From: Mycobacterium sp. Root265
GTDB lineage: Bacteria > Actinomycetota > Actinomycetes > Mycobacteriales > Mycobacteriaceae
Assembly (NCBI RefSeq): GCF_001428895.1
Contig: NZ_LMJA01000031.1
Location: 501,010 to 565,009, forward strand
Reading direction: 5' to 3'
Length of the DNA: 64,000 nucleotides
The position numbers were made by a program, and so were the translations under genes. Under the pieces are notes generated by a model. That model saw only the letters and a program-made list of their open reading frames with translations, had not been told where the DNA came from and made no database searches. Positions 16,095 through 27,651 of this stretch are shown here, piece after piece. Position 1 is the stretch's first letter. Every line of letters starts with the position of its first letter.

Positions 16095-17171
16095 TTAGTG
16101 CCGAGCGAGCGTGGTCAGCACGTCGAAATCGAATCCGTCAGCGACGGCCAGATGCACCGGCTGCACCGTCGAGTCCGGATGAAACTCGACCGTGCCGCGA
16201 GGGCTCTCGTATGCCATGCCATCTGCTGCCGGCAGGTCCGTCAGGCGCCCGGTTCGATGAATCAGTTTGGCGAGCAGCTGCGTTCCCTCATAACATGATT
16301 CGGCTATACCACTGAGCGGCGGCGCGCCGGGCCCGTGCAGGTCGAGATAACGGTCGAGAAGCTCCATCGAGCCGGCCCCGATCATCGACCGAAAGTACGA
16401 GGCTGCCACGAACAACCGCCGCGTGGCGCCGTCACCACTGGCCAGCAGCATGCTCTCGTCCATCAGGGGACTGAATCGCACGAACGACTCGTCTGCACCC
16501 TGCGCCGCGCAGGCACGGTTGAACTCCACCGCGTCGTGGCCGACGAGCAGCATCAGCACGGCCTCGCAACCCGAGCCCAGCGCGGCACGTACGACCTCTG
16601 CCATATCGGCGCGACCGAGGTCGACGAACCGCCCCCCGACGATGTCCAGGTTCAGCTCGCCGGCGTATCGGCGTACCGATGCCATCGAGGATCGCGGCCA
16701 CACGTAGTCGTCACCGACGATGAACCACCGCCGGATACCGAGGTTGTCCCGCAGCCAGCGCAGCGCCGGCTCGATCTGACCATCGGGGGTCTCGCCGCAG
16801 CAATAGATGTCGCGACGATGCTCGCCGCCCTCGTACAACGCCGGATATGCATAGGGGACGCGAGCGGCCACCACGGGCGCCAAGGCGTTGCGCACCGACG
16901 AGATGTGCCAGCCGGTGACCGCGTCGATCCGTCCATCGGAGACAAGTTCGTCGACACGGTGCGCGACCGCAGCGGGCTCCGCCCCACCGTCCACGACCTC
17001 TATGTGCACCTCGCGGCCGAGCACCCCACCAGCGGCGTTCAGGTCGTGGGCGGCCAGCTGACCGACCGCCTCGCAGGAGGGGCCGAACACTCCCCCGGGC
17101 CCTTGCAGGGGAACCACCATGGCCAACCGCCACCGTTCGGCGTCGGTACCTGCCGGGTGCGAGCCCGCCAT
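16095..17171 (-). CDS. AmiC-like amide-sensing substrate-binding protein
   Basis: 358 residues, a type I periplasmic-binding-protein fold of the branched-chain amino acid/AmiC group (VVPLQGPGGVFGPSC, LNAAGGVLGREVHIEVVDG, GDDYVWPRSS). No signal peptide is visible, so like AmiC and the nitrile hydratase regulator NhhC it probably acts in the cytoplasm as an amide sensor. The ATG at 17171 follows an AGGA-containing stretch. It lies upstream of amiS in the same direction and diverges from a MarR gene; the AmiC/MarR pairing mirrors NhhC/NhhD of Rhodococcus and regulators of the mycobacterial acetamidase system. Confidence 0.85.
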   Translation of the reverse strand: MAGSHPAGTDAERWRLAMVVPLQGPGGVFGPSCEAVGQLAAHDLNAAGGVLGREVHIEVVDGGAEPAAVAHRVDELVSDGRIDAVTGWHISSVRNALAPVVAARVPYAYPALYEGGEHRRDIYCCGETPDGQIEPALRWLRDNLGIRRWFIVGDDYVWPRSSMASVRRYAGELNLDIVGGRFVDLGRADMAEVVRAALGSGCEAVLMLLVGHDAVEFNRACAAQGADESFVRFSPLMDESMLLASGDGATRRLFVAASYFRSMIGAGSMELLDRYLDLHGPGAPPLSGIAESCYEGTQLLAKLIHRTGRLTDLPAADGMAYESPRGTVEFHPDSTVQPVHLAVADGFDFDVLTTLARH

Positions 17172-17215
17172 CTGCCTGTCCTCACCTGTGCCATCGAGCG
17201 ATCGGCTGCTATCGT

Positions 17216-17227
17216 TTCCAACTGGAA
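17216..17227. promoter_or_regulatory. Short dyad in the divergent amiC-like/marR promoter
   Basis: TTCCAACTGGAA is a 12-bp perfect dyad (TTCCA, 2-bp spacer, TGGAA) midway between the two divergent starts. It is a candidate autoregulatory site for the MarR-family protein. Confidence 0.45.
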
Positions 17228-17276
17228 GTATCGCGCGTTGTGGGCGCGGTCGGCAAGACGCAAGGAGATGTCTGTC

Positions 17277-17705
17277 ATGTCGAGTCCGTCTCCCCGCGGC
17301 CGAGCGGACAGTTCGGTGACGGTCGTGATGCTCCGCGCGGCACGCCGACTCGGCAACGACCTCGAAGCCGAACTGCAACGCGCCGACCTCGGGATCGACC
17401 ACTGGCTCGTCATCGATGTTCTGGCCGGCGCCGACGGCCTCACCATGGCCGAGTTGCAATCGGCGACGATGATCGCGGGCCCCACCCAAACGCGGGTCGT
17501 CGACAAACTGGTGTCCCGTTCACTGATGTATCGCGAGGTCGACAAATTCGACCGCCGCAAGGTGCGGGTGTACATCAGCACGAGAGGACTGGCGCTCCAC
17601 AAGGAGTTGCGGCCCGCTGTGGACGCCGTGGAGCAAGCCTGGCTGGATGACCACGCCGCACAGGTCCTCGGCGGCGTCGCGGATCGACACGCCGGTAGAT
17701 CCTGA
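17277..17705 (+). CDS. MarR-family transcriptional regulator of the amidase locus
   Basis: 142 residues. The start at 17277 is preferred because AAGGAG at 17262-17267 would abut the earlier ATG at 17268 but is well spaced from this one. The winged helix region (LTMAELQSATMIAGPTQTRV, then VDKLVSRSLMYREVDKFDRR) is characteristic. It is divergent from the AmiC-like sensor gene and upstream of a second amidase gene, so it probably controls both units, perhaps through contact with the sensor. Confidence 0.85.
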   Translation: MSSPSPRGRADSSVTVVMLRAARRLGNDLEAELQRADLGIDHWLVIDVLAGADGLTMAELQSATMIAGPTQTRVVDKLVSRSLMYREVDKFDRRKVRVYISTRGLALHKELRPAVDAVEQAWLDDHAAQVLGGVADRHAGRS

Positions 17706-17780: not shown

Positions 17781-18794
17781 ATGGACCACATCACCTTCGT
17801 CCCGTCGCCCGACCAGTTCGCGTTCACCTTCGGCGGCGCCGATCCGGTGCTGCGCATCAAGGCGCCCACGGTGCTCACGTTGTGGGCCGAGGACGCCTAC
17901 GGTGGCCGGATCACCAGCGCAGACGATGTGGCCAGCAGCGCGCTGGACACCGAGGACCTCAATCCGCAGACCGGACCGTTCTGGATCGAAGGTGCCGAAC
18001 CCGGGGACACCCTGGCCGTGCATCTGGTGGATCTGACGCCGGCGCGCAGCTGGGGCGCGTCGACGCTCATCCCGTTCTTCGGCGGGCTGACCAGCGTGCC
18101 GGTGAGCCCGACGCTGCAGGATCCGCTACCCGAACGCACCTGGATCTACGAATACGACTCGGCGGCGCGCACTGTCGGGTTCTCGGCGAAGGGCAGCAAT
18201 TTCGAGGTGGCACTGCCCGCCAACCCGATGCTCGGCACCGTCGGCGTCGCGCCCGCCCGCCGGGAGGTACGCACCTCACTGGTACCCGATGTGTTCGGCG
18301 GCAACATGGACACCCCGGAGATGACCGCGGGCGCCACCTGCTACCTGCGGGTGAACGTGCCGGGTGCGCTGTTCTCCCTCGGCGACGGTCACTACCGCCA
18401 GGGTGAGGGCGAGTCGTGCGGCACCGCAGTGGAGGGTGCGATGAACGTGACCGCGATCGTCGAACTGATCAAGGGCGGCGGACCCGCCTGGCCCCGACTG
18501 GAGACCGACACCCACCTGATGTGCATCGGATCCGGGCGCCCACTGGAGGAGGCGTGGCGCGCGGGGCAGGTCGAGATGATCACCTGGCTGGGCGAGCTGT
18601 ACGGGCTGGACCGGTTCGACGCCTACCAGTTGCTCACCCAGATCTCGTTGGCGCCGATCGCCAACGTGGTGGACACCAACTACAGCGCGGTGACCAAGAT
18701 CGACAAGCGGCTGCTGCCCAACGCCGCCGCGTACGGCGGCGTACACAGCGAACTGCGCTCAGCGGCAAAGTCATTCGGAACCATCACGTACTAG
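17781..18794 (+). CDS. Acetamidase/formamidase family protein (FmdA/AmdA type)
   Basis: 337 residues, unrelated in fold to AmiE. Family features include EPGDTLAVHLVDL, a conserved MLGTVGVAP, the GGNMDTPEMTAGATCYLRV metal-site region, LFSLGDGHYRQGEGESCGTAVEG, and a late TDTHLMCIG. It should hydrolyse formamide or small amides. It is shorter than the roughly 400-residue acetamidases and belongs to the smaller members of the family. It follows the MarR gene on the same strand and is 12 bp upstream of an SDR gene. Confidence 0.88.
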   Translation: MDHITFVPSPDQFAFTFGGADPVLRIKAPTVLTLWAEDAYGGRITSADDVASSALDTEDLNPQTGPFWIEGAEPGDTLAVHLVDLTPARSWGASTLIPFFGGLTSVPVSPTLQDPLPERTWIYEYDSAARTVGFSAKGSNFEVALPANPMLGTVGVAPARREVRTSLVPDVFGGNMDTPEMTAGATCYLRVNVPGALFSLGDGHYRQGEGESCGTAVEGAMNVTAIVELIKGGGPAWPRLETDTHLMCIGSGRPLEEAWRAGQVEMITWLGELYGLDRFDAYQLLTQISLAPIANVVDTNYSAVTKIDKRLLPNAAAYGGVHSELRSAAKSFGTITY

Positions 18795-19572: not shown

Positions 19573-20634
19573 TCACGCATCTCCAGCCGGCCGGACCAGC
19601 CCACGCGGCCGGACCAGCCCCAGACCCAGATGGGTGACCCAGCCCGGTGCGGCGTCGCATACCGCGGGGATGGTGTTGATGGCACCCATCGCTGTCCAGT
19701 CATAGCCGGGATGGGCCATCGTCCCGTCCGGCCGGTTGACCCCCTTGAGGGTCAGTTCGGTCGGTGGATCTCCGTCGATGACGATCTCGTAGCGGGTCTC
19801 GCCCCAGTCCCACGGCGGATCCAGTTTGTCCGGCCCCGCGGTGACATAGATGGCGTGGAAGACGATCAACGGCCGGCCGTCCACCCATGCCGTCCATTCG
19901 TGTCGCTGCGCGGCGACCGTGCCCACCGCGATCGCTCCCTCGTCGTGCGCAATGGGTTCCCGCGCTGTCGCGACGTCGATCTCGGCGGCGGTCACCTCGT
20001 CGATGGTGACGCCGAGGCCGTCGGCGATCATGTACATCGACTGCGCGAAGAACGGCACTCCGAGGCCGAGAATCGTCGGCTCGGTCAGGAATGCGTCCTT
20101 GTCCTTGCCGAACCCCATCCAGTCGATGTGGTCCAGCGGCGCATCCTTGATGACGTCGACGACTTCGTACACCTGGATGGTGTCGATCCTGCTCATCACC
20201 CGGGCCAGGGTGAGCGGAAGGACGTCACCGGCGTAGCCGGGGTGGATGCCGCCGCCGTGGAAGGAGGTACCACCGTCGGCGCAGGCGGCGCGGATCTGGT
20301 CACCGGCGTCCGCGAAATCCGGTGACGGATAGAAGAACCCGCTGGTAGTGACGACATTCTTGCCGGAACGCAGTATTCGGCAGACGGTGGCGACGTCCAT
20401 GATGATGGGGGTGTAGAACACGCAGTCGGCGTCCAGGGCCAGGACGGCGTCGACATCGTCGGTGGTGGTGACCCCGGTCGCAGCGATGCCGACAATGTCG
20501 CCGGCATCCAGACCCACCTTCTCCGCGGAGTGCACCAGCACTCCGATGAGATCGAACACCGGATTGTCGGCGAAATGCCGAAGACCGACCTGTCCGACGT
20601 CACCGGTCATCCACTGGATCACCCGATAACTCAT
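19573..20634 (-). CDS. DapB-like NAD(P)-dependent oxidoreductase (second of tandem pair)
   Basis: 353 residues. The N-terminus (YRVIQWMTGDVGQVGLRHF) is a Rossmann motif resembling dihydrodipicolinate reductase and 2,4-diaminopentanoate dehydrogenase, followed by a conserved GGIHPGYAGDVLPLTLARVM segment. The ATG at 20634 overlaps the stop of the preceding paralogue by 4 bp. It is the last gene of a long leftward operon led by small membrane proteins and an AAA/VWA pair. The substrate is unknown; lysine biosynthesis is unlikely because there are two diverged copies in an accessory operon. Confidence 0.8.
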   Translation of the reverse strand: MSYRVIQWMTGDVGQVGLRHFADNPVFDLIGVLVHSAEKVGLDAGDIVGIAATGVTTTDDVDAVLALDADCVFYTPIIMDVATVCRILRSGKNVVTTSGFFYPSPDFADAGDQIRAACADGGTSFHGGGIHPGYAGDVLPLTLARVMSRIDTIQVYEVVDVIKDAPLDHIDWMGFGKDKDAFLTEPTILGLGVPFFAQSMYMIADGLGVTIDEVTAAEIDVATAREPIAHDEGAIAVGTVAAQRHEWTAWVDGRPLIVFHAIYVTAGPDKLDPPWDWGETRYEIVIDGDPPTELTLKGVNRPDGTMAHPGYDWTAMGAINTIPAVCDAAPGWVTHLGLGLVRPRGLVRPAGDA

Positions 20635-21704
20635 CGCCTCAAGCCTTTCGACAACACGCCGCGGCCAACGATGGTGGGCAGGTCCAAAAAGGTGCGGATC
20701 CCCGGCACGGCGGCGCAGACCGGAGCGATCGCGTGGACGGCGTGCATCGCAGTGCCCAGACACCCCTGATCGGTGTCATCCTCGTCGTGGATGGCGATCC
20801 GCGATTCCAGCACCATCGACGGCGCCCCCTCGACGGTCACCTTCCAGCCTCGCCCGTTCGGCCAGTCCGGCGCCTGCTCGGCGCCGAGCCGGGTGATGTG
20901 TTCGACGGTCAGTGCCCGCCTGCCCTCGATCACCGCAGTATAGGAGAAGCGCTGCGCCGAAACGGTTCCCGCTTCGATGCGGCCCGCCTTGACATCGATC
21001 GGCGTGTCGGTGACCGCCACCTCGCGCTCCCAGATGTAGTCGTCGATCGTCGCGCCAAGGCCCTCCGCCAGCAGCATGAGCGGCGCCTTGAAGGACAGTC
21101 CGCCGATCGCCGCCTCGTCCATCGGCACCCGCTCATCGGGTGGTTTGCCGAAGCCCATCACCTCGAACAATACGAACGGCACGTTGTAGGTGGAGTAGTC
21201 CATCAGCTCCTGCACCAGCAGCGAGTCGATGTGCCGGAACAGTCCGGACATCGTCAGCGGGAGCACCTCCGCAGCCCAGCCCGGTTGAATTCCGGTGGCG
21301 TGGAAAGAACTTCGGCCCTCCTGGCAGGCCGTCTCCAGCCGCTGCGTCACGTCGTCGCCGGCGCTCTGCGGATAGATCCACGCGGTGACGGCGGTGGACA
21401 CCACGTTCTTGCCGGAGGCCAGCAGCCGGCAGATATCGTCCAGCGCGACAGGTGGATTCCACTCGCCCTCGGCCATGTAGAGCACACAGTCGGCCTCGAG
21501 CGCGAGGATCTCGTCGACATCGGTGGTGGCCAGGATGCCGATCTCACCGATTCCGGCGACGTCGCCGATATCGCGTCCTGCCTTCGCCTCGTTGTACACC
21601 CGGGCACCGACGAGTTCGAGATCGGGATGGTCGTGCACCGCGGCCAATGCATGGGTGCCGACATTGCCGGTGGCCCACTGGATCACCCGCAGTTTCGGGC
21701 CCAT
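20631..21704 (-). CDS. DapB-like NAD(P)-dependent oxidoreductase (first of tandem pair)
   Basis: 357 residues, paralogous to its downstream neighbour: KLRVIQWATGNVGTHALAAV Rossmann start, GKNVVSTAVTAWIYP, and TGIQPGWAAEVLPLTMSGLF. The start at 21704 lies one base from the stop of the upstream 135-residue membrane protein gene, and its stop overlaps the next start by ATGA. This tight coupling ties the reductases to the membrane protein genes. Function is unknown; heterodimer formation by the two paralogues is possible. Confidence 0.8.
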   Translation of the reverse strand: MGPKLRVIQWATGNVGTHALAAVHDHPDLELVGARVYNEAKAGRDIGDVAGIGEIGILATTDVDEILALEADCVLYMAEGEWNPPVALDDICRLLASGKNVVSTAVTAWIYPQSAGDDVTQRLETACQEGRSSFHATGIQPGWAAEVLPLTMSGLFRHIDSLLVQELMDYSTYNVPFVLFEVMGFGKPPDERVPMDEAAIGGLSFKAPLMLLAEGLGATIDDYIWEREVAVTDTPIDVKAGRIEAGTVSAQRFSYTAVIEGRRALTVEHITRLGAEQAPDWPNGRGWKVTVEGAPSMVLESRIAIHDEDDTDQGCLGTAMHAVHAIAPVCAAVPGIRTFLDLPTIVGRGVLSKGLRR

Positions 21705-21705
21705 C

Positions 21706-22113
21706 TCAGCCACCTTGCTCGGCGAGCCGGGCCTGGCGTGCCTCGTACCGGTCGACCAGCTCGCGGAATCCGAGCCGGTCGTACTGCGGGATGGGTTGGA
21801 TGCCCCAGACATCGCGGGCGGTGTCCTTGCCCTCGGCGCCTTCCGGCGGCCCCAGCGGCGGATAGGGGAACTTGCACTCCAGGGCGTCATCGGAGTACCG
21901 CACCTTGAGCAGTTCACTGCAGATCTGGGTGAGGCTCAGCGTCGGGTAGCCGTAGTAGACCGCCATGAACGGCAATGTAAAGGCCCCCTCGATGACGAGC
22001 GCGATCAGGCACACCAGCACCGCGCGTTTGATGTACTTGTGCATCCGTGCGTAGTAGGGCGTGGTGCCCGGCGGCAGATCTTCGGCGGTTGTTTCGGCTT
22101 GCGGTGTTGTCAC
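21706..22113 (-). CDS. Single-span membrane protein of unknown function
   Basis: 135 residues, not recognised. The N-terminus is polar and acidic ([11 protein letters not shown]), followed by a basic stretch (HKYIKR) and one transmembrane segment at about residues 31-53. The remaining 80 residues are outside or inside the membrane with Cys65 and Cys80 and a proline-rich [10 protein letters not shown] segment. It lies 12 bp after the 229-residue membrane protein gene and 1 bp before the first reductase gene. It may be an accessory subunit of a membrane complex. Confidence 0.7.
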
Positions 22114-22125
22114 GGTGTCACTCCT

Positions 22126-22815
22126 TCAGTCCGTGAAGATTTCGCGATTCACCGTGTGCAGGTACGGGATCGCGAGGAACGGGGTGATGTAGAAGATGTC
22201 GTAGAGCCACCAGCCGATGACGGGGAAGATGACGCCCGCGAACCGAACATCGGCGAACATCGTCATGTTGAAGACATAGACGCTCCAGATCACGACACCC
22301 ATCCAGCAGGTGACGATCATCCACTGGTGGCCCCAGCGCTTCATCTGCAGGAATCCGATGGCGGCGGCGCAGCGCATGGCGAAGACGGTGATGATCATGC
22401 CGGCCACCATGGCCTTCTCGCCGGGACCTGCGGCGCCGCCGATCCACAGTTCGTTGTAGTGCCAGAAGTATCCGGCGTCGAACATGTGGCCCCAGCCCAC
22501 CATGAGGACCCGGTTGATCAGGGTGTGGTTGGCGACCAGGTCCAGCGCCCAGCCCAGGCTGTTGAGCATTCCGTCGATCAGCACCAGGTAGCCGATCAGG
22601 GTGACGATCATCGGGCGCACCGACAGTCCGGCGCGCGCCGCCTGCCGCTGCAGCCACACCCCGCGCATGAAGATCGGGAAGCCGATCAGCCCCGGTACCC
22701 ACATGCCCATGAGCGCAGCGCCGACGATCATCCATTTGTCGGCTCGCCGCTGGGCGAGCCGGGACTCCTCGCTGTGGTCCTCCAGGCTGACGGAGCCGCC
22801 GACAGCCAGGCTCAC
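22126..22815 (-). CDS. Polytopic membrane protein of unknown function, copy A
   Basis: 229 residues with about five to six hydrophobic segments. The GTG start at 22815 is chosen because it overlaps the stop of the 43-residue peptide gene (GTGA). A striking polar-aromatic motif in the membrane region, GWGHMFDAGYFWHYNELW, gives His110, Asp113, His119 and Glu122; with His220 near the C-terminus these could bind metal. The C-terminal third (TMFADVRFAG through HTVNREIFTD) is almost identical to that of the paralogue at 26165-26857. A distant relation to AveC-like membrane cyclases is possible but I cannot establish it. Confidence 0.75.
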   Translation of the reverse strand: MSLAVGGSVSLEDHSEESRLAQRRADKWMIVGAALMGMWVPGLIGFPIFMRGVWLQRQAARAGLSVRPMIVTLIGYLVLIDGMLNSLGWALDLVANHTLINRVLMVGWGHMFDAGYFWHYNELWIGGAAGPGEKAMVAGMIITVFAMRCAAAIGFLQMKRWGHQWMIVTCWMGVVIWSVYVFNMTMFADVRFAGVIFPVIGWWLYDIFYITPFLAIPYLHTVNREIFTD

Positions 22816-22943
22816 AGATACCACCAGCCGCGTTCGAATGACATGTAGAGCTGGATGAGGAACATCGTGAGCAGGTAGCCGTAGATGGCGATCTGGAACA
22901 CGATGAGCGCCCGCTTACGCTTCTTCTCTTTCTGGTCGACCAT
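22812..22943 (-). CDS. 43-residue single-span membrane peptide
   Basis: A short gene between the AAA ATPase and the polytopic membrane protein. Translation from the ATG at 22943 gives a basic N-terminus (MVDQKEKKRKR), one hydrophobic helix (residues about 12-35) and an aromatic tail (FERGWWYL). The stop overlaps the GTG of the next gene by 4 bp, and the start is 15 bp from the ATPase stop, so it sits exactly where an operon gene should. Single-helix subunits of this kind are common in membrane oxidoreductase complexes. The function is unknown. Confidence 0.7.
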   Translation of the reverse strand: MVDQKEKKRKRALIVFQIAIYGYLLTMFLIQLYMSFERGWWYL

Positions 22944-22957
22944 GGCGAAATCCCTTC

Positions 22958-23749
22958 TCAGAGTCTGTCGGCGGCGAGGAGGCCTGCTGCCGCGATTTCC
23001 CGGAGCCCCTCACTGATGGCTCCGTCGGTGCTCAATGGTGCGAGGATGCACGCTTCGGCGGCCTCCAACTCGCCGGCACCGGCGGCGATTAGCTGGGCGG
23101 CGGTGACGAGCACCCGCGTCGACGGCGGCTCGAAGTGGAAGGCTTCATCCGCGGTGCGGATGGCGTTGGCGCACTGCACGAGCCGCCGGGCCGCCGCTGG
23201 GTCGATACCCGTTTCGGAGACCACGGCTTGGGCTTCCCGTTCCGGTGGCAGGTAGCTCATCGGCAGCGTCGCGAAACGCTGCCGGAAGGACGGCTTGAGT
23301 TCCTTCAATGAGCTGCGGTAGGCCGGATTGTAGGAGCACACGAGCATGAATTCATCTGGTGCCGAGACGACTTCGTCGGCGCGGTCGAGATAGAGGGTGC
23401 GACGGTGGTCGGTCAGTGAGTGCAGGATGGCCAGCGAGTCGTGGCGCGCCTCGACGACCTCGTCGAGGTAGCAGATGGCCCCGGTCTTGACCGCTCTGGT
23501 CAGGGGTCCGTCGGTCCAGATCACGTCACCACCGGTGACCATGAAGCGGCCGACGAGATCGGAGCTGGTCAGGTCGTCGTGGCAGCTGATGGTCACGACG
23601 GGTCGGCCGAGCAGGGACCCCATGTGTTCGACGAACCGGGTCTTCCCGCAGCCGGTGGGCCCGGTGAGCATGACCGGAATCTTGCGAGTGAAGGCCTGCT
23701 CGAAGAGCTGCACCTCGTTGCCGTTGGAATAGTATGTCTCGCTACTCAT
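22958..23749 (-). CDS. MoxR-type AAA+ ATPase of the CbbQ/NirQ/NorQ group
   Basis: 263 residues, a single AAA+ module: Walker A LTGPTGCGKTRF, Walker B AICYLDEVVEARHD, sensor-1 region LVCSYNPAYRSS and RQRFATLPM. Start at 23749 (MSSETYYSNG). These ATPases pair with VWA proteins to insert metal or remodel client enzymes such as nitric oxide reductase (NorQ/NorD) and Rubisco (CbbQ/CbbO). Here it follows the VWA gene by 13 bp, but no nitric oxide reductase or Rubisco gene is present; the client is probably the adjacent membrane proteins. Confidence 0.87.
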   Translation of the reverse strand: MSSETYYSNGNEVQLFEQAFTRKIPVMLTGPTGCGKTRFVEHMGSLLGRPVVTISCHDDLTSSDLVGRFMVTGGDVIWTDGPLTRAVKTGAICYLDEVVEARHDSLAILHSLTDHRRTLYLDRADEVVSAPDEFMLVCSYNPAYRSSLKELKPSFRQRFATLPMSYLPPEREAQAVVSETGIDPAAARRLVQCANAIRTADEAFHFEPPSTRVLVTAAQLIAAGAGELEAAEACILAPLSTDGAISEGLREIAAAGLLAADRL

Positions 23750-23762
23750 CTGTCTCCCGATG

Positions 23763-25295
23763 TCATGAATTGACCAGCTCCCGGTGGACGTGCGCCAGCA
23801 CACGGGGTAACTCTTCGATCCGCCGGATCCGTTGTGAGCGTTTGGGTCCGAACACCTCGGGAAGCGGGTCGACCCGCGTCGGTCCCACGCCGACGTAGTA
23901 GACGGACACGCCGGCGTCGTTGGCCTCCTCGACCGCATGCGCGGCATCCGACCAGGCGTAGCGGCCCTCGTAACCTTCATCGGAGATCATCCCGTCACCG
24001 ATGATGATGAGCAGTCGGCGCTCCGAGGGCTGTGCGAGCAGCCTGCCGGTCAGGTGACGGATGGGCGCGCCGAGTCGGGTATAGCCGCCGGTGGACAGCC
24101 CCAGACCGCTGGGCGGGACGAACCGTACTTCCGGGAAGTCCTTGAGGCAGCGCACTTCCACGCGATGGCGGGTGTTGCCGGTGAACACGAAGATGCCGTG
24201 CCGTTCCCGCGCCTGGGTCATCGCCCGCGACAGTGCATCGGCGCAGGCCAGTTCCAACCGGAACACCCGGCCCCCGTGGACACCCAGCGATGAGCTGGCG
24301 TCCAGCAGCAGCGCTGTGCTGACATCGCGGTTGCTGGGTAGCAGTTCCCGGAACAGGCGTGGCTCGGCGGCTTCCCCGGTGCGCAGGTCCACGTAATGGC
24401 GTACGTACTGGTCGATGTCGAGATCCGAGCCGTCCTCCAGGCGGCTGATCATGGCGCGATGGGTGTTCTCCTGGAACCACTTGCGCAGATCGGCCGAAGC
24501 CGTCTTCGCGGCATCGACACGGCTGTCGCGGGCCAGTTCCAGAACCGCCACGTGGTCGGGCAGGAAGCGTTTCGTCCAGGCGTTCCACTCCGGGTACGGG
24601 ATGCCCGGCCGGTGCTCGGGGGTGACATCCACATCGTTGTCCTGCGGGCGGCTCGGTGGCGGCAGATTCGGGTTGCGCACGCCGCCGTCACCGCCCACCG
24701 GTACCGAGTAGGGCCGGGGCATCCGCTTTTGCGTCGTGGTCCACGGCATCCTGCCGAATTGGCGCCGCAGCTTGTCGACCAGTCCTGTCGGTGTCGTGTA
24801 GATCGCGGGCAACCGCCCCAACAGCGGGTGGACGGTGAGCCCGTCGGCGCTGCGGGCCAGCGCGATCGCGCGGCTGATCATCGTGTGGGCATCCTGCTGC
24901 GGGTCGGACGGCTTCAGTTCGGGCAGCAGCCGGGCGCATTCGGGCATCAGCCCCGGCCACCTCGAGGCGATCCAGCCCAGCGAGACACCCGCCTCCACGA
25001 GGGTCAGGGCGCGTATCTCGCGTGCCGACAGTTCGTCGATCCGGTATTCGCCGACGCGGTCCTTGGATGACGAACATTGCAGGGCGATACCGCATGTCAG
25101 CGAACGGCGTGTCCAGTCCGCACCGAGCTGCGGGTAGGGCACGTGGATGAACGTGCGCGACGAGTTCAGGCCGAACCCGCGGTGTTCCCCGGTGACCAGC
25201 CGGACACCCGCGCGACGCTCTTCGCTCAGTGCGACCGCGGTGAGCGAGCAACTGCGTTCCAGCGCCATCGCCGAGGTGTCATCGAGATCAGCCAT
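23763..25295 (-). CDS. VWA-domain protein, NorD/CbbO-like
   Basis: 510 residues. The C-terminal von Willebrand A domain begins with an intact MIDAS motif, LLLDASSSLG (DxSxS), followed by HGIFVFTGNTRH, a TGGYTRLGAPIRH threonine loop and LLIIIGDGMISDEGYEG. The N-terminal half is an unassigned helical region with a proline-rich linker around residues 195-225. It is the adaptor partner expected for the MoxR-type ATPase encoded directly downstream. The upstream 34-residue peptide gene is separated by 33 bp. Confidence 0.85.
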   Translation of the reverse strand: MADLDDTSAMALERSCSLTAVALSEERRAGVRLVTGEHRGFGLNSSRTFIHVPYPQLGADWTRRSLTCGIALQCSSSKDRVGEYRIDELSAREIRALTLVEAGVSLGWIASRWPGLMPECARLLPELKPSDPQQDAHTMISRAIALARSADGLTVHPLLGRLPAIYTTPTGLVDKLRRQFGRMPWTTTQKRMPRPYSVPVGGDGGVRNPNLPPPSRPQDNDVDVTPEHRPGIPYPEWNAWTKRFLPDHVAVLELARDSRVDAAKTASADLRKWFQENTHRAMISRLEDGSDLDIDQYVRHYVDLRTGEAAEPRLFRELLPSNRDVSTALLLDASSSLGVHGGRVFRLELACADALSRAMTQARERHGIFVFTGNTRHRVEVRCLKDFPEVRFVPPSGLGLSTGGYTRLGAPIRHLTGRLLAQPSERRLLIIIGDGMISDEGYEGRYAWSDAAHAVEEANDAGVSVYYVGVGPTRVDPLPEVFGPKRSQRIRRIEELPRVLAHVHRELVNS

Positions 25296-25328
25296 GGCCG
25301 GCCCCCGGCGGTCCCACGTGCGCGCGGT

Positions 25329-25433
25329 TCAGAAGGTGCCGATATTGGAGAACATCCAGTACCAGAACCAGATGACCAGGCCGGTACCGCCCCAGGCTGC
25401 GACGTAGCGCAGTACCTCCCACAGATAGTCCAC
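25329..25433 (-). CDS. 34-residue tryptophan-rich single-span membrane peptide
   Basis: A very short gene between the TetR gene and the VWA gene. From a GTG at 25433, preceded by a strong GAGGAGG ribosome binding site, it reads MDYLWEVLRYVAAWGGTGLV and continues with IWFWYWMFSNIGTF. It is essentially one aromatic-rich transmembrane helix. The good ribosome binding site and the operon position support a real gene. Together with the 43-residue peptide it suggests small subunits of a membrane complex. Confidence 0.65.
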   Translation of the reverse strand: MDYLWEVLRYVAAWGGTGLVIWFWYWMFSNIGTF

Positions 25434-25457
25434 GGTCGAACCTCCTCGTTGACGGGT

Positions 25458-26060
25458 TCATCGGATCTCCAGGCCACGAGCCGCGGAGGAGACCAGCTTG
25501 TCGAGCATGGTGTTTCGGGCGGCGACGTCGTCGGTGGTGGTGAGCACCCCGTAGACGCCGAGCAGGAAGAACACGGCGCTGTAGAAGGCGTCGACTTCCG
25601 GGTGCACAGCGCCGTCGCGGCGCGCGCTCTCGATCTCACGGACGAGTTGCACGATCACCGCGTGGTCGGTCCAGTCTTCGGGGTCGGGCCGCGACGGCGA
25701 GAAGTGCAGGGCAAGAATCTCTTTGAACAAGATTGGGCCGAAGCGGCGCTCGATGCCGATCACGAGGGTGATCACCTCGGCCAGTGCGCTCCGCAGATCA
25801 TGCCGGTGATCGAGGAAACGGCCGAAAGCCGTCGCCACCCTGGCTTCTTCGCGACGTACCAACTCCAGCAACACATGTTCTTTGCTCGGGTAGTGGAAGT
25901 AGAAGGTGCCGTGCGCGACCCCGGCCGCAGCCACGATCGTGTTCACCTCGGCGCCGGCCGTGCCCGCCCGCTGGAACTCGGCGATCGCGGCGCCGAGGAT
26001 GCGTTCCCGGGTCTGAAGCCGGCGCGCGTCACGCTGTGTCGGCTTCAGGTGTGGCGTCAT
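25458..26060 (-). CDS. TetR-family regulator heading the MoxR/VWA operon
   Basis: 200 residues. The helix-turn-helix is EVNTIVAAAGVAHGTFYFHY, with a ligand-binding C-terminal domain. It is closely similar to the second TetR protein at 26923-27525 (shared RRLQTRERI, AAAGVAHGTF and GRF or GRY-LG-HDL patterns), so the two are duplicates. A TGACTTGAGTCA palindrome lies 26 bp upstream of its start. It heads the leftward operon that contains the small peptides, VWA protein, ATPase, membrane proteins and reductases. Confidence 0.88.
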   Translation of the reverse strand: MTPHLKPTQRDARRLQTRERILGAAIAEFQRAGTAGAEVNTIVAAAGVAHGTFYFHYPSKEHVLLELVRREEARVATAFGRFLDHRHDLRSALAEVITLVIGIERRFGPILFKEILALHFSPSRPDPEDWTDHAVIVQLVREIESARRDGAVHPEVDAFYSAVFFLLGVYGVLTTTDDVAARNTMLDKLVSSAARGLEIR

Positions 26061-26085
26061 GGTCTTCTGTTTCTAGCTCAGCGAC

Positions 26086-26097
26086 TGACTTGAGTCA
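26086..26097. promoter_or_regulatory. TGACTnnAGTCA palindrome, site 1
   Basis: TGACTTGAGTCA is a dyad with 5-bp arms and TG spacer, 26 bp upstream of the first TetR start and next to the AT-rich stretch CAATAGTATTCAC that could hold a promoter. The same dyad recurs at 26864 and, with one change, at 27640. Confidence 0.75.
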
Positions 26098-26164
26098 ATA
26101 GTATTCACAGCTTCTCGTGCCGAATTGCCTGTTCGGGGCTGATATGGAAACAGGTTGGGTGATA

Positions 26165-26857
26165 TCAGTCAGTGAATATCTCGCGGTTCACCGTATGGAG
26201 ATACGGGATCGCAAGAAACGGCGTGATGTAGAAGATGTCGTAGAGCCACCAGCCCACGACCGGGAAGATGGTGCCCGCGAACCGGACGTCGGCGAACATC
26301 GTCATGTTGAACACGTAAAGCACCCAGATGACCACGCCCATCCAGCAGGTGACGATCATCCACTGCTGGCCCCAGCGCTTCATCTGCAGGAAGCCGATGG
26401 CGGCGGCGATCCGCATGGTGAACACCGTGAGGATCATCCCCACCTCCATGGCCTTCTCGCCCGGCCCGGACGCGCCGCCGACCCAGAGTTCGTTGAAATG
26501 CCAGAAGTATCCGGCGTCGAACATGTGTCCCCAGCCGTTCAACAACACCCTGGCCAGCAGTGTGTGACTGCCGATCAGGTCGAGCGCCCACCCGACCGTG
26601 TTGATCGCCGCGTCGATGATGACCAGGTACCCGAGCAGGGTCACCATCATCGGCCGCACCGACAGTCCGTTCTGCTGGGCACGGCGCAGCAGCCACACGC
26701 CCCGCAGGAACAGCGGCAGGCCGAAGATCCCCAGCGCGGCGGTACCTATCAGGATGCTGCCACTGATCAACCATCGGTCCGCTTGGCGCTGGGCCAGCCG
26801 GGACTCCTCCATGTGTTCATCGAGAGGCAGGGTCGCCGAAGCGGCTGACGGTCGCAT
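26165..26857 (-). CDS. Polytopic membrane protein of unknown function, copy B
   Basis: 230 residues, paralogue of the protein at 22126-22815 and very similar over its full length, with GWGHMFDAGYFWHFNELW and an identical C-terminal end. The residues H, D, H and E of the central motif and the late His are kept, while the His after the QMKRWG segment in copy A is Gln here, so that one is dispensable. The ATG at 26857 is chosen. It stands alone between the two TetR genes, with its own TGACTCTAGTCA palindrome immediately upstream, and ends within a CAGTCAGTGA sequence. Confidence 0.75.
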   Translation of the reverse strand: MRPSAASATLPLDEHMEESRLAQRQADRWLISGSILIGTAALGIFGLPLFLRGVWLLRRAQQNGLSVRPMMVTLLGYLVIIDAAINTVGWALDLIGSHTLLARVLLNGWGHMFDAGYFWHFNELWVGGASGPGEKAMEVGMILTVFTMRIAAAIGFLQMKRWGQQWMIVTCWMGVVIWVLYVFNMTMFADVRFAGTIFPVVGWWLYDIFYITPFLAIPYLHTVNREIFTD

Positions 26858-26863
26858 GTTCAC

Positions 26864-26875
26864 TGACTCTAGTCA
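26864..26875. promoter_or_regulatory. TGACTnnAGTCA palindrome, site 2
   Basis: TGACTCTAGTCA lies 7 bp upstream of the start codon of the membrane protein copy B, where binding by one of the TetR proteins would block expression. The arms are identical to those of site 1. Confidence 0.75.
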
Positions 26876-26922
26876 TGCAAATGACTGCCGAACAAGCACC
26901 GGACGCGGTAGCGTCCGACGAC

Positions 26923-27525
26923 TCAGCCGGCGACGGCGACGCTGCGCATGGTGCGCTTCACCAGATCTTCGAGCAGATCGCGGCGCATCGGGTCGTTGGT
27001 GGTGATCGCCAATGCGTAGAGGCACAACAGGAAGAACACCGCACTGTTGATCGGCTGAACCTCGGGATCCACTTCACCCTCGGACCGGGCCCGCTCGATG
27101 CGCTGGGCCAGCAGCAGCACCAGTGAGTGGTCACCGCCGTCCTCGGAATCCGGCCGGGTCTGTGAGAAATGCAGCGCCAGAAAGTCCTTGAACAGGACGT
27201 CGCCGAGCCGGCGTTCGAGCCCCAGCACCAGGCGCGCGGCCTCGGACAGGGCCGACTCCAGGTCATGACCCCTGCCGAGGTACCGGCCGAACTGCTTGGC
27301 CATTCGGTCTTCCTCGCGCTTCTCCAACTCCAGGAGAACGTGCTCCTTGGTGGGGAAGTGAAAAAAGAAGGTGCCATGAGCCACGCCGGCGGCGGCCACG
27401 ATGGCGGCGACATCGGCCTCGGCCATCCCGGACCGCTTGAACTCGGCGACCGCGGCACCCATGAGGCGCTCCCGGGTCTGCAGACGCTTCGCCTCGCGCG
27501 CCGAGGGGCCGTTCACCACCGCCAT
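26923..27525 (-). CDS. Second TetR-family regulator of the MoxR/VWA locus
   Basis: 200 residues from the ATG at 27525 (MAVVNGPSAREAK). The helix-turn-helix is DVAAIVAAAGVAHGTFFFHF, nearly the same recognition helix as the TetR protein at 25458-26060, which predicts overlapping operator specificity. It is transcribed toward copy B of the membrane protein with a gap of 65 bp, and diverges from a DJ-1/PfpI gene across a region that holds palindrome site 3. Confidence 0.88.
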   Translation of the reverse strand: MAVVNGPSAREAKRLQTRERLMGAAVAEFKRSGMAEADVAAIVAAAGVAHGTFFFHFPTKEHVLLELEKREEDRMAKQFGRYLGRGHDLESALSEAARLVLGLERRLGDVLFKDFLALHFSQTRPDSEDGGDHSLVLLLAQRIERARSEGEVDPEVQPINSAVFFLLCLYALAITTNDPMRRDLLEDLVKRTMRSVAVAG

Positions 27526-27639
27526 GTCCGCTCCGTTCCCTGTCCGCGCTCCGGCGCACCGAGTGGTCCGGAACCGCCGACAATGACAATATCGCCTCGA
27601 CCTGCCGACCGGTCCGACCCGGCGAGGCCGCCGCTGCAA

Positions 27640-27651
27640 TGACCTGAGTCA
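27640..27651. promoter_or_regulatory. TGACTnnAGTCA-like palindrome, site 3
   Basis: TGACCTGAGTCA matches sites 1 and 2 except for one base in the left arm. It lies in the 189-bp divergent region between the second TetR gene and the DJ-1/PfpI gene, so it may control either or both. Confidence 0.6.

Follow-up and report, generated by a model that had tools for sequence, protein, structure and literature searches.

We analyzed a window of 64,000 nucleotides from Mycobacterium sp. Root265 (contig NZ_LMJA01000031.1; genome of 6.67 Mb), which carries on its minus strand, between positions 19573 and 27525, a gene set combining a MoxR AAA+ ATPase and a NorD-like VWA protein with several small membrane proteins. 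In order of transcription the set comprises TetRb, M232b, TetRa, p34, the VWA protein, the CbbQ-type ATPase, p43, M232a, SS135, reductase 2 and reductase 1. Its center is formed by p34 (25329..25433), a single-span peptide of 34 amino acids that ends in a conserved GTF (9 of 9 cases), the VWA protein (23763..25295; 510 amino acids), the ATPase (22958..23749; 263 amino acids, start checked), the 43-amino acid single-span peptide p43 (22812..22943), the polytopic membrane protein M232a (22126..22824), of 232 amino acids if read from GTG 22824 or 229 if read from GTG 22815, which overlaps the p43 stop, and SS135 (21706..22113), a 135-amino acid single-span protein with a Pro-rich tail. A second polytopic membrane protein, M232b (26165..26863), is a paralog of M232a with 73% identity, and the two may form a hetero-oligomer or act as isoenzymes. 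The original prediction, made from the sequence of the window, had described a leftward transcript running from a TetR gene to two reductases; all the genes that it named are present on the minus strand, but it missed M232b and the second TetR gene. It had further placed start-stop overlaps at several junctions, of which two are true overlaps, p43/M232a (GTGA, or 13 nt if M232a starts at its first GTG) and reductase 2/reductase 1 (ATGA), but the others are short gaps (SS135/reductase 2, 1 nt; M232a/SS135, 12 nt; VWA/ATPase, 13 nt; ATPase/p43, 14 nt; TetRa/p34, 24 nt; p34/VWA, 33 nt), with every junction from TetRa to reductase 1 being an overlap or a gap of at most 33 nt on checked or likely starts. 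The two peptides are true genes, because most differences between loci are at the third position of the codon (positions 1/2/3: 0.092/0.050/0.302 for p34, n=79; 0.172/0.066/0.330 for p43, n=80).

The ATPase matches the Pfam families AAA_5 (2.3e-36) and CbbQ_C (3.5e-22), and a sequence search of the PDB recovered NorQ as its best solved relative (9qh4_A, E 1.2e-77), with a CbbQ protein also among the matches (6l1q_C, 1.1e-66). The VWA protein shows a Pfam VWA match that lies below the cut-off of that family (6.8e-4), and its best solved relative is NorD (9qhd_G, phmmer E 1.7e-32), which aligns with residues 223-509 of 510 and leaves the N-terminal 222 residues uncovered. Its C-terminal VWA domain contains a metal ion-dependent adhesion site (MIDAS; D332, S334, S336, T406 and D434) that is intact, as had been predicted, and conserved in 92-93 of the 93 loci compared; the Walker A and B residues of the ATPase are kept in all 93, some of these loci being the same genome taken twice. 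On these sequence features the two proteins classify as a NorQ/CbbQ-type MoxR ATPase and its NorD-type VWA partner. In one locus (L040, genome G031) the ATPase gene matches as two overlapping pieces, and is therefore broken or misassembled there. Among the 30 window proteins scanned, a few of them stretches in a likely wrong frame, we found none of the structural genes of nor, cbb or nif, in agreement with the original prediction; nor does the pair adjoin nor or cbb genes in the part scanned. Rfam searches of the window returned nothing at gathering scores. A defense function was considered and rejected, as PADLOC gives only a weak P-loop match of the ATPase to IetA (1.6e-4).

To define the conserved unit we used 80 named loci, the best 80 of 321 relatives, which are therefore near relatives rather than independent samples; the nearest, from Mycolicibacterium frederiksbergense LB 501T, has an M232a that is 99% identical. 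The order p34-VWA-ATPase-p43-M232a-SS135 is found on one strand in 79 of the 80, with the single exception (L060) cut by a contig end, and M232b lies upstream of this core in the same direction, likewise in 79 of 80. Seven further loci, termed type II (L034-L037 and L167-L169), contain p43, M232 and SS135 but no pair nearby, each with a p34-like ORF (open reading frame) ending in GTF upstream; such an ORF is also present in L163, the locus of the most distant holder. The genes for the four membrane proteins move as a unit, and they are co-inherited with the pair: in all 7 type II genomes genes for the ATPase, VWA protein, p43 and M232 stand side by side elsewhere. As to whether homologs of the membrane proteins occur widely apart from the pair, these 7 loci and one plasmid copy do lack a local pair, but 7/7 of the type II genomes have one at another site.

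The plasmid copy, an M232 homolog of Mycobacterium branderi with 34.6% identity (L029:11920-12639), has other residues at the positions of H100, H122, E125 and H223, and the preceding ORF resembles, by eye, a fusion of p34 with the span of SS135. The most distant holder, G178, belongs to another class of the phylum; its M232 shares 42% identity with M232b, and behind it come VWA and ATPase genes and ahead of it three small single-span ORFs, of which one is p34-like and ends in GTF, while by eye another resembles the SS135 span and the third is p43-like with a two-Cys tail. Two polytopic proteins that look alike by eye and match no Pfam family flank this cluster (L163:6449-7216 and 17853-18662). 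In genome samples drawn evenly from the order, the phylum and the class of this holder, which overlap each other in genomes, M232 occurs in 26 of 298 genomes of Mycobacteriales, 10 of 396 from the phylum (one doubtful) and 1 of 299 from the class, the last being G178 itself; we left aside a match in G262 (E 1.4e-4, internal stop) and one of 35 residues in G607. Given this sparse occurrence, the system is patchy and mostly mycobacterial, with environmental mycobacteria as its carriers. A phage or virus origin was rejected, with no match in phages and no viral contig stretch fitting the peptide patterns.

None of p34, p43, M232a and SS135 belongs to a Pfam or NCBIfam family at the respective cut-offs, and M232a has no sequence match in the PDB below E 0.8. 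We also tried and rejected an assignment of M232 to the AveC_like family (PF17198), as M232a and M232b do not match its model at E up to 10 and the profile-profile probability does not exceed 25%; the profiles are shallow (effective number of sequences, Neff, 1.9-3.4), so distant kinship is possible. The corresponding comparison for SS135 was not significant. The residues of M232 that are invariant in 58/58 sequences include the Asp, Asn, Glu and Lys residues D84, N88, D95, D116, N124, E136 and K137 but no His; His100 is kept in 57. As to the His/Asp/His/Glu motif noticed in the original prediction, Asp116 is its sole invariant residue; the second His (His122) and the Glu (Glu125) are kept in 56 and 55 of the 58 sequences, both being changed in the two most distant relatives, but the first His recurs in only 8. 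In SS135, Cys65 and Cys80 of the Pro-rich tail (numbering of the window protein) are invariant in 10/10 sequences. Foldseek gave no match for M232 below E 0.8, and the best rows of a structural comparison are the sterol-binding bundle of the sigma-2 receptor (TMEM97, of the EXPERA fold), at Z values within the range for which the tool warns about helical bundles and with 7-11% identity. The 50 best structural rows include no chain of a copper membrane monooxygenase (CuMMO), NorB or a terpene cyclase, in a list that does not exclude them.

The regulators TetRa (25458..26060; Pfam TetR_N 1e-11) and TetRb (26923..27525, its start at ATG 27525 assigned by likeness to TetRa) are both TetR-family proteins of 200 amino acids on the minus strand. 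A tetR match on the same strand is present in 77 of 80 named loci, relatives of TetRb give TetRa-like matches of 54-57%, and TetRa does not show up as a gene of its own in all relatives. At the other end of the set, reductase 2 (20631..21704; DAP_DH_C 3.4e-12) and reductase 1 (19573..20634; DAP_DH_C 8.2e-11), both with checked starts on the minus strand, resemble DapB and 2,4-diaminopentanoate dehydrogenase; reductases 1 and 2 reach 88.9 and 117.4 bits, respectively, against the 400-bit cut-off of the NCBIfam equivalog for the latter enzyme, and show no electron-transfer domain by Pfam or NCBIfam. They are optional, with a DapB-like reductase anywhere in 69 of 80 named loci. Neighbors of type I clusters (first 25 of 78 families) include DAP_DH_C, the commonest with 13 of 101 proteins, TetR, short-chain dehydrogenases/reductases (SDRs), AMP-ligases and P450s. 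Those of type II (first 25 of 33 families) include SDRs, enoyl-CoA hydratases, AMP-ligases, amidohydrolases and acyl-CoA dehydrogenases, with DAP_DH_C in 1 of 76 proteins. As far as such family assignments go, these are the families of lipid and terpene-like catabolism. The window also encodes a Peripla_BP_6 ligand-binding protein near the M232 cluster (16098-17411), a family found near AveC-like clusters too (3 of 68 members; L043:6608-7723 by likeness), and an acetamidase/formamidase (PF03069; 17778-18791), a similar-looking ORF (by eye) lying at L219:14951-15982 near the CbbQ gene of G056.

The source genome encodes three CbbQ_C ATPases, and the other two (L043 and L044, on contigs C1 and C12) each lie beside a VWA protein and AveC_like membrane proteins (1.5e-68 to 1.8e-101). 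We accordingly surveyed 150 Mycobacteriales genomes, in which, leaving out five weak rows (E 1.5e-9 and weaker), 30 strong CbbQ_C rows divide into 18 within 1.54 kb of an AveC_like gene, 10 beside M232 and 2 beside neither; all 10 genomes of this sample with an M232 have an adjoining CbbQ gene. The link of CbbQ/VWA pairs to AveC-like proteins outnumbers that to M232 in the sampled mycobacteria. The two remaining CbbQ genes are those of G056 and G380; in G380 the ATPase ORF has 114 amino acids and the start of its neighbor nearly matches, by eye, that of a gene in the AveC-like cluster L223, which suggests a decayed AveC-like cluster. Conversely, 12 of the 14 genomes of the Mycobacteriales sample with AveC_like over the cut-off have CbbQ_C, the other two being G459, with the short type only, and G482, with a borderline match in a 601-amino acid ORF. 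In the phylum sample this holds for 7 of 7; CbbQ_C occurs there in 30 of 296 genomes, which implies that other clients exist. In a tree of the ATPases (47 usable rows of 55 loci, those with no match or with an ORF outside 200-420 amino acids being dropped, two rows being one gene and L163 lying on a long branch), 15 M232-linked rows form one group (99/97), and 10 AveC-linked rows with one more row from G178 form another (98/93). Hence, the tree splits by client and each client has its own ATPase lineage. In G178 itself, the distance from M232 is about 9 and 19 kb for AveC-like genes and about 36 kb for a second CbbQ gene (L216, L217).

Clusters with AveC-like proteins are also surrounded by P450s, SDRs, acyl-CoA dehydrogenases, aldehyde dehydrogenases and Peripla_BP_6 proteins. 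Short AveC-like proteins of about 260 amino acids are preceded in 10/10 loci (L174, L186-L190, L195, L196, L203 and L204) by a conserved single-span peptide of about 26-40 amino acids, its start uncertain, whose stop overlaps their start; it parallels p34 and p43. An alignment of 20 AveC-like proteins has no invariant or nearly invariant His, and each CbbQ-linked subtype taken alone keeps one or two, so both redox and non-redox chemistry are possible. Our structural model of an AveC-like protein is poor (predicted local distance difference test score, pLDDT, 60.6), and its fold searches therefore say nothing. PMC13303154 ascribes to AveC spiroketalization and dehydration, which are not redox chemistry, and PMC5819568 uses AveC as an indel marker in mycobacteria. 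Among the matches listed from open-licence papers, we found no description of the gene set of the window or of the link between CbbQ and AveC.

Taken as a whole, these observations incline us to the view that the NorQ/NorD-type pair probably matures a dedicated membrane enzyme composed of M232 (a and b), p34, p43 and SS135. The dedicated small-subunit membrane complex of the original prediction is supported, with the pair tied to it by the six-gene order in 79/80 loci and the 10 of 30 strong CbbQ_C rows beside M232. MoxR ATPases are widespread (PMC3893208), and the mechanism that we propose is transferred from NorQD because of the NorQ/NorD homology: there, cryo-EM places a finger of the VWA protein inside the ATPase pore and the NorD C-terminus in contact with NorQ (PMC13036017), and, according to PMC9976466, active cNOR requires the MIDAS residues together with surface carboxylates of cNOR. 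By analogy, the ATPase and VWA protein of the window would form a cytosolic chaperone machine, in which the VWA protein would serve as the plug of the ATPase ring and, via its MIDAS, bind to the membrane complex on the cytosolic side. Use of ATP would then open the complex, permitting the insertion of a cofactor, most simply a metal ion, or the resetting of a dead form; the pair may act in either way, by metal insertion or as an activase. Once mature, the enzyme would serve a catabolic pathway and have a lipophilic substrate, with nearby reductases and SDRs handling its product or, in some species, perhaps supplying electrons.

Three points weigh against this proposal. No full cofactor site is universally conserved in M232, with His122 and Glu125 lost even in L163, which keeps the pair. 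Further, the 24.6 kb of plasmid read around the M. branderi homolog contains no pair. Finally, the 20 AveC-like proteins share no conserved His, and the pair may therefore not concern metal, although each CbbQ-linked subtype on its own does keep one or two.

An alternative that we consider possible though somewhat unlikely is a client of the AveC-like type without redox chemistry, an acid-base enzyme such as a cyclase, dehydratase, isomerase or hydratase that takes a lipophilic substrate and may itself be an AveC-like protein, either distant or split, with the pair acting on it as an activase without inserting metal. CbbQO acts in this manner, as an activase, on Rubisco. Two of the three CbbQ/VWA pairs of the genome and 18 of the 30 sampled stand beside AveC_like genes, the short forms of these proteins have their own small peptide, and the invariant residues of M232 lack His, all of which is consistent with such a client. 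By eye, the M232 and AveC-like families also have in common a D-x3-N motif and a two-Cys Pro-rich tail, and a sterol-binding bundle as the best structural row for M232 would agree with this reading.

The original prediction had instead suggested a metal-dependent membrane oxidoreductase that draws electrons from the two DapB-like reductases, a reading that we regard as distinctly unlikely. The NorQD precedent, which is insertion of FeB (PMC9976466), speaks for it, as do Asp116 and His100, which with His122 and Glu125 could form a site in mycobacteria, and the frequency of DAP_DH_C near type I clusters. However, His122 and Glu125 are not universal, and the placement of the reductases counts against feeding by them: only 58 of 80 loci have one on the same strand no more than 3.2 kb downstream, and they are nearly absent from type II neighborhoods. 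They also carry no electron-transfer domain by Pfam or NCBIfam, and neither an electron carrier nor a metal site emerged from the analysis. A chance proximity of the membrane genes to the chaperone pair, or a sharing of regulation only, would accommodate the membrane sets of the 7 type II loci but is very improbable in view of the order kept in 79/80 loci, the joint presence of M232, VWA and ATPase genes in another class of the phylum and the ATPase groups that track the client. The idea that M232 is a relative of the CuMMO subunits PmoC/AmoC is extremely unlikely: the catabolic setting and membrane subunits agree with it, and the His/Glu stretch of M232 and p43 presumably resemble PmoC, but the searches do not bear this likeness out, M232a matching none of the AmoC and AMO models at E up to 10 and no such chain in the PDB by profile.

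Returning to maturation of a dedicated membrane enzyme by the pair, we suggest tentatively, and with about as much doubt as confidence, that actinobacteria possess a general class of lipid-facing membrane enzymes, comprising the AveC-like proteins and the M232-p34-p43-SS135 set, each served by its own NorQ/NorD-type lineage, with M232 representing a new family that has 34- and 43-residue subunits. To our knowledge few MoxR clients are known, and if this suggestion holds, the clients of MoxR/VWA pairs would reach well beyond respiratory and Rubisco enzymes. As it stands, one MoxR subfamily is linked to a defined four-part membrane set outside known families, and another to the AveC-like proteins, whose name comes from an avermectin enzyme. 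If the client relation is correct, an orphan chaperone class becomes testable in harmless mycobacteria, and one might speculate that some AveC-like proteins need such a pair for expression in active form.

In comparison with known systems, M232 shares 7-11% identity with the sigma-2 receptor/TMEM97, with no Foldseek match below E 0.8. The window ATPase shares the CbbQ_C domain and a sequence match with the ATPase of the CbbQ/CbbO system of Rubisco, but no Rubisco gene is found among the scanned window proteins and its conserved partners are membrane proteins. The mycobacterial AveC-like clusters have the same kind of pair, catabolic surroundings, a polytopic protein and, in the short type, a small peptide; they differ in that their polytopic proteins show no significant sequence similarity to M232 and their ATPases belong to another group of the tree. 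Relative to NorQ/NorD, encoded with cNOR in norCBQDEF of Paracoccus denitrificans, the window lacks norB and norC among the proteins scanned, its client proteins show no relation in sequence, and neither Pfam nor NCBIfam has a family that p34 or p43 matches above the cut-off, but the ATPase and VWA protein are homologous to NorQ and NorD and there, too, the client, cNOR, is a membrane complex.

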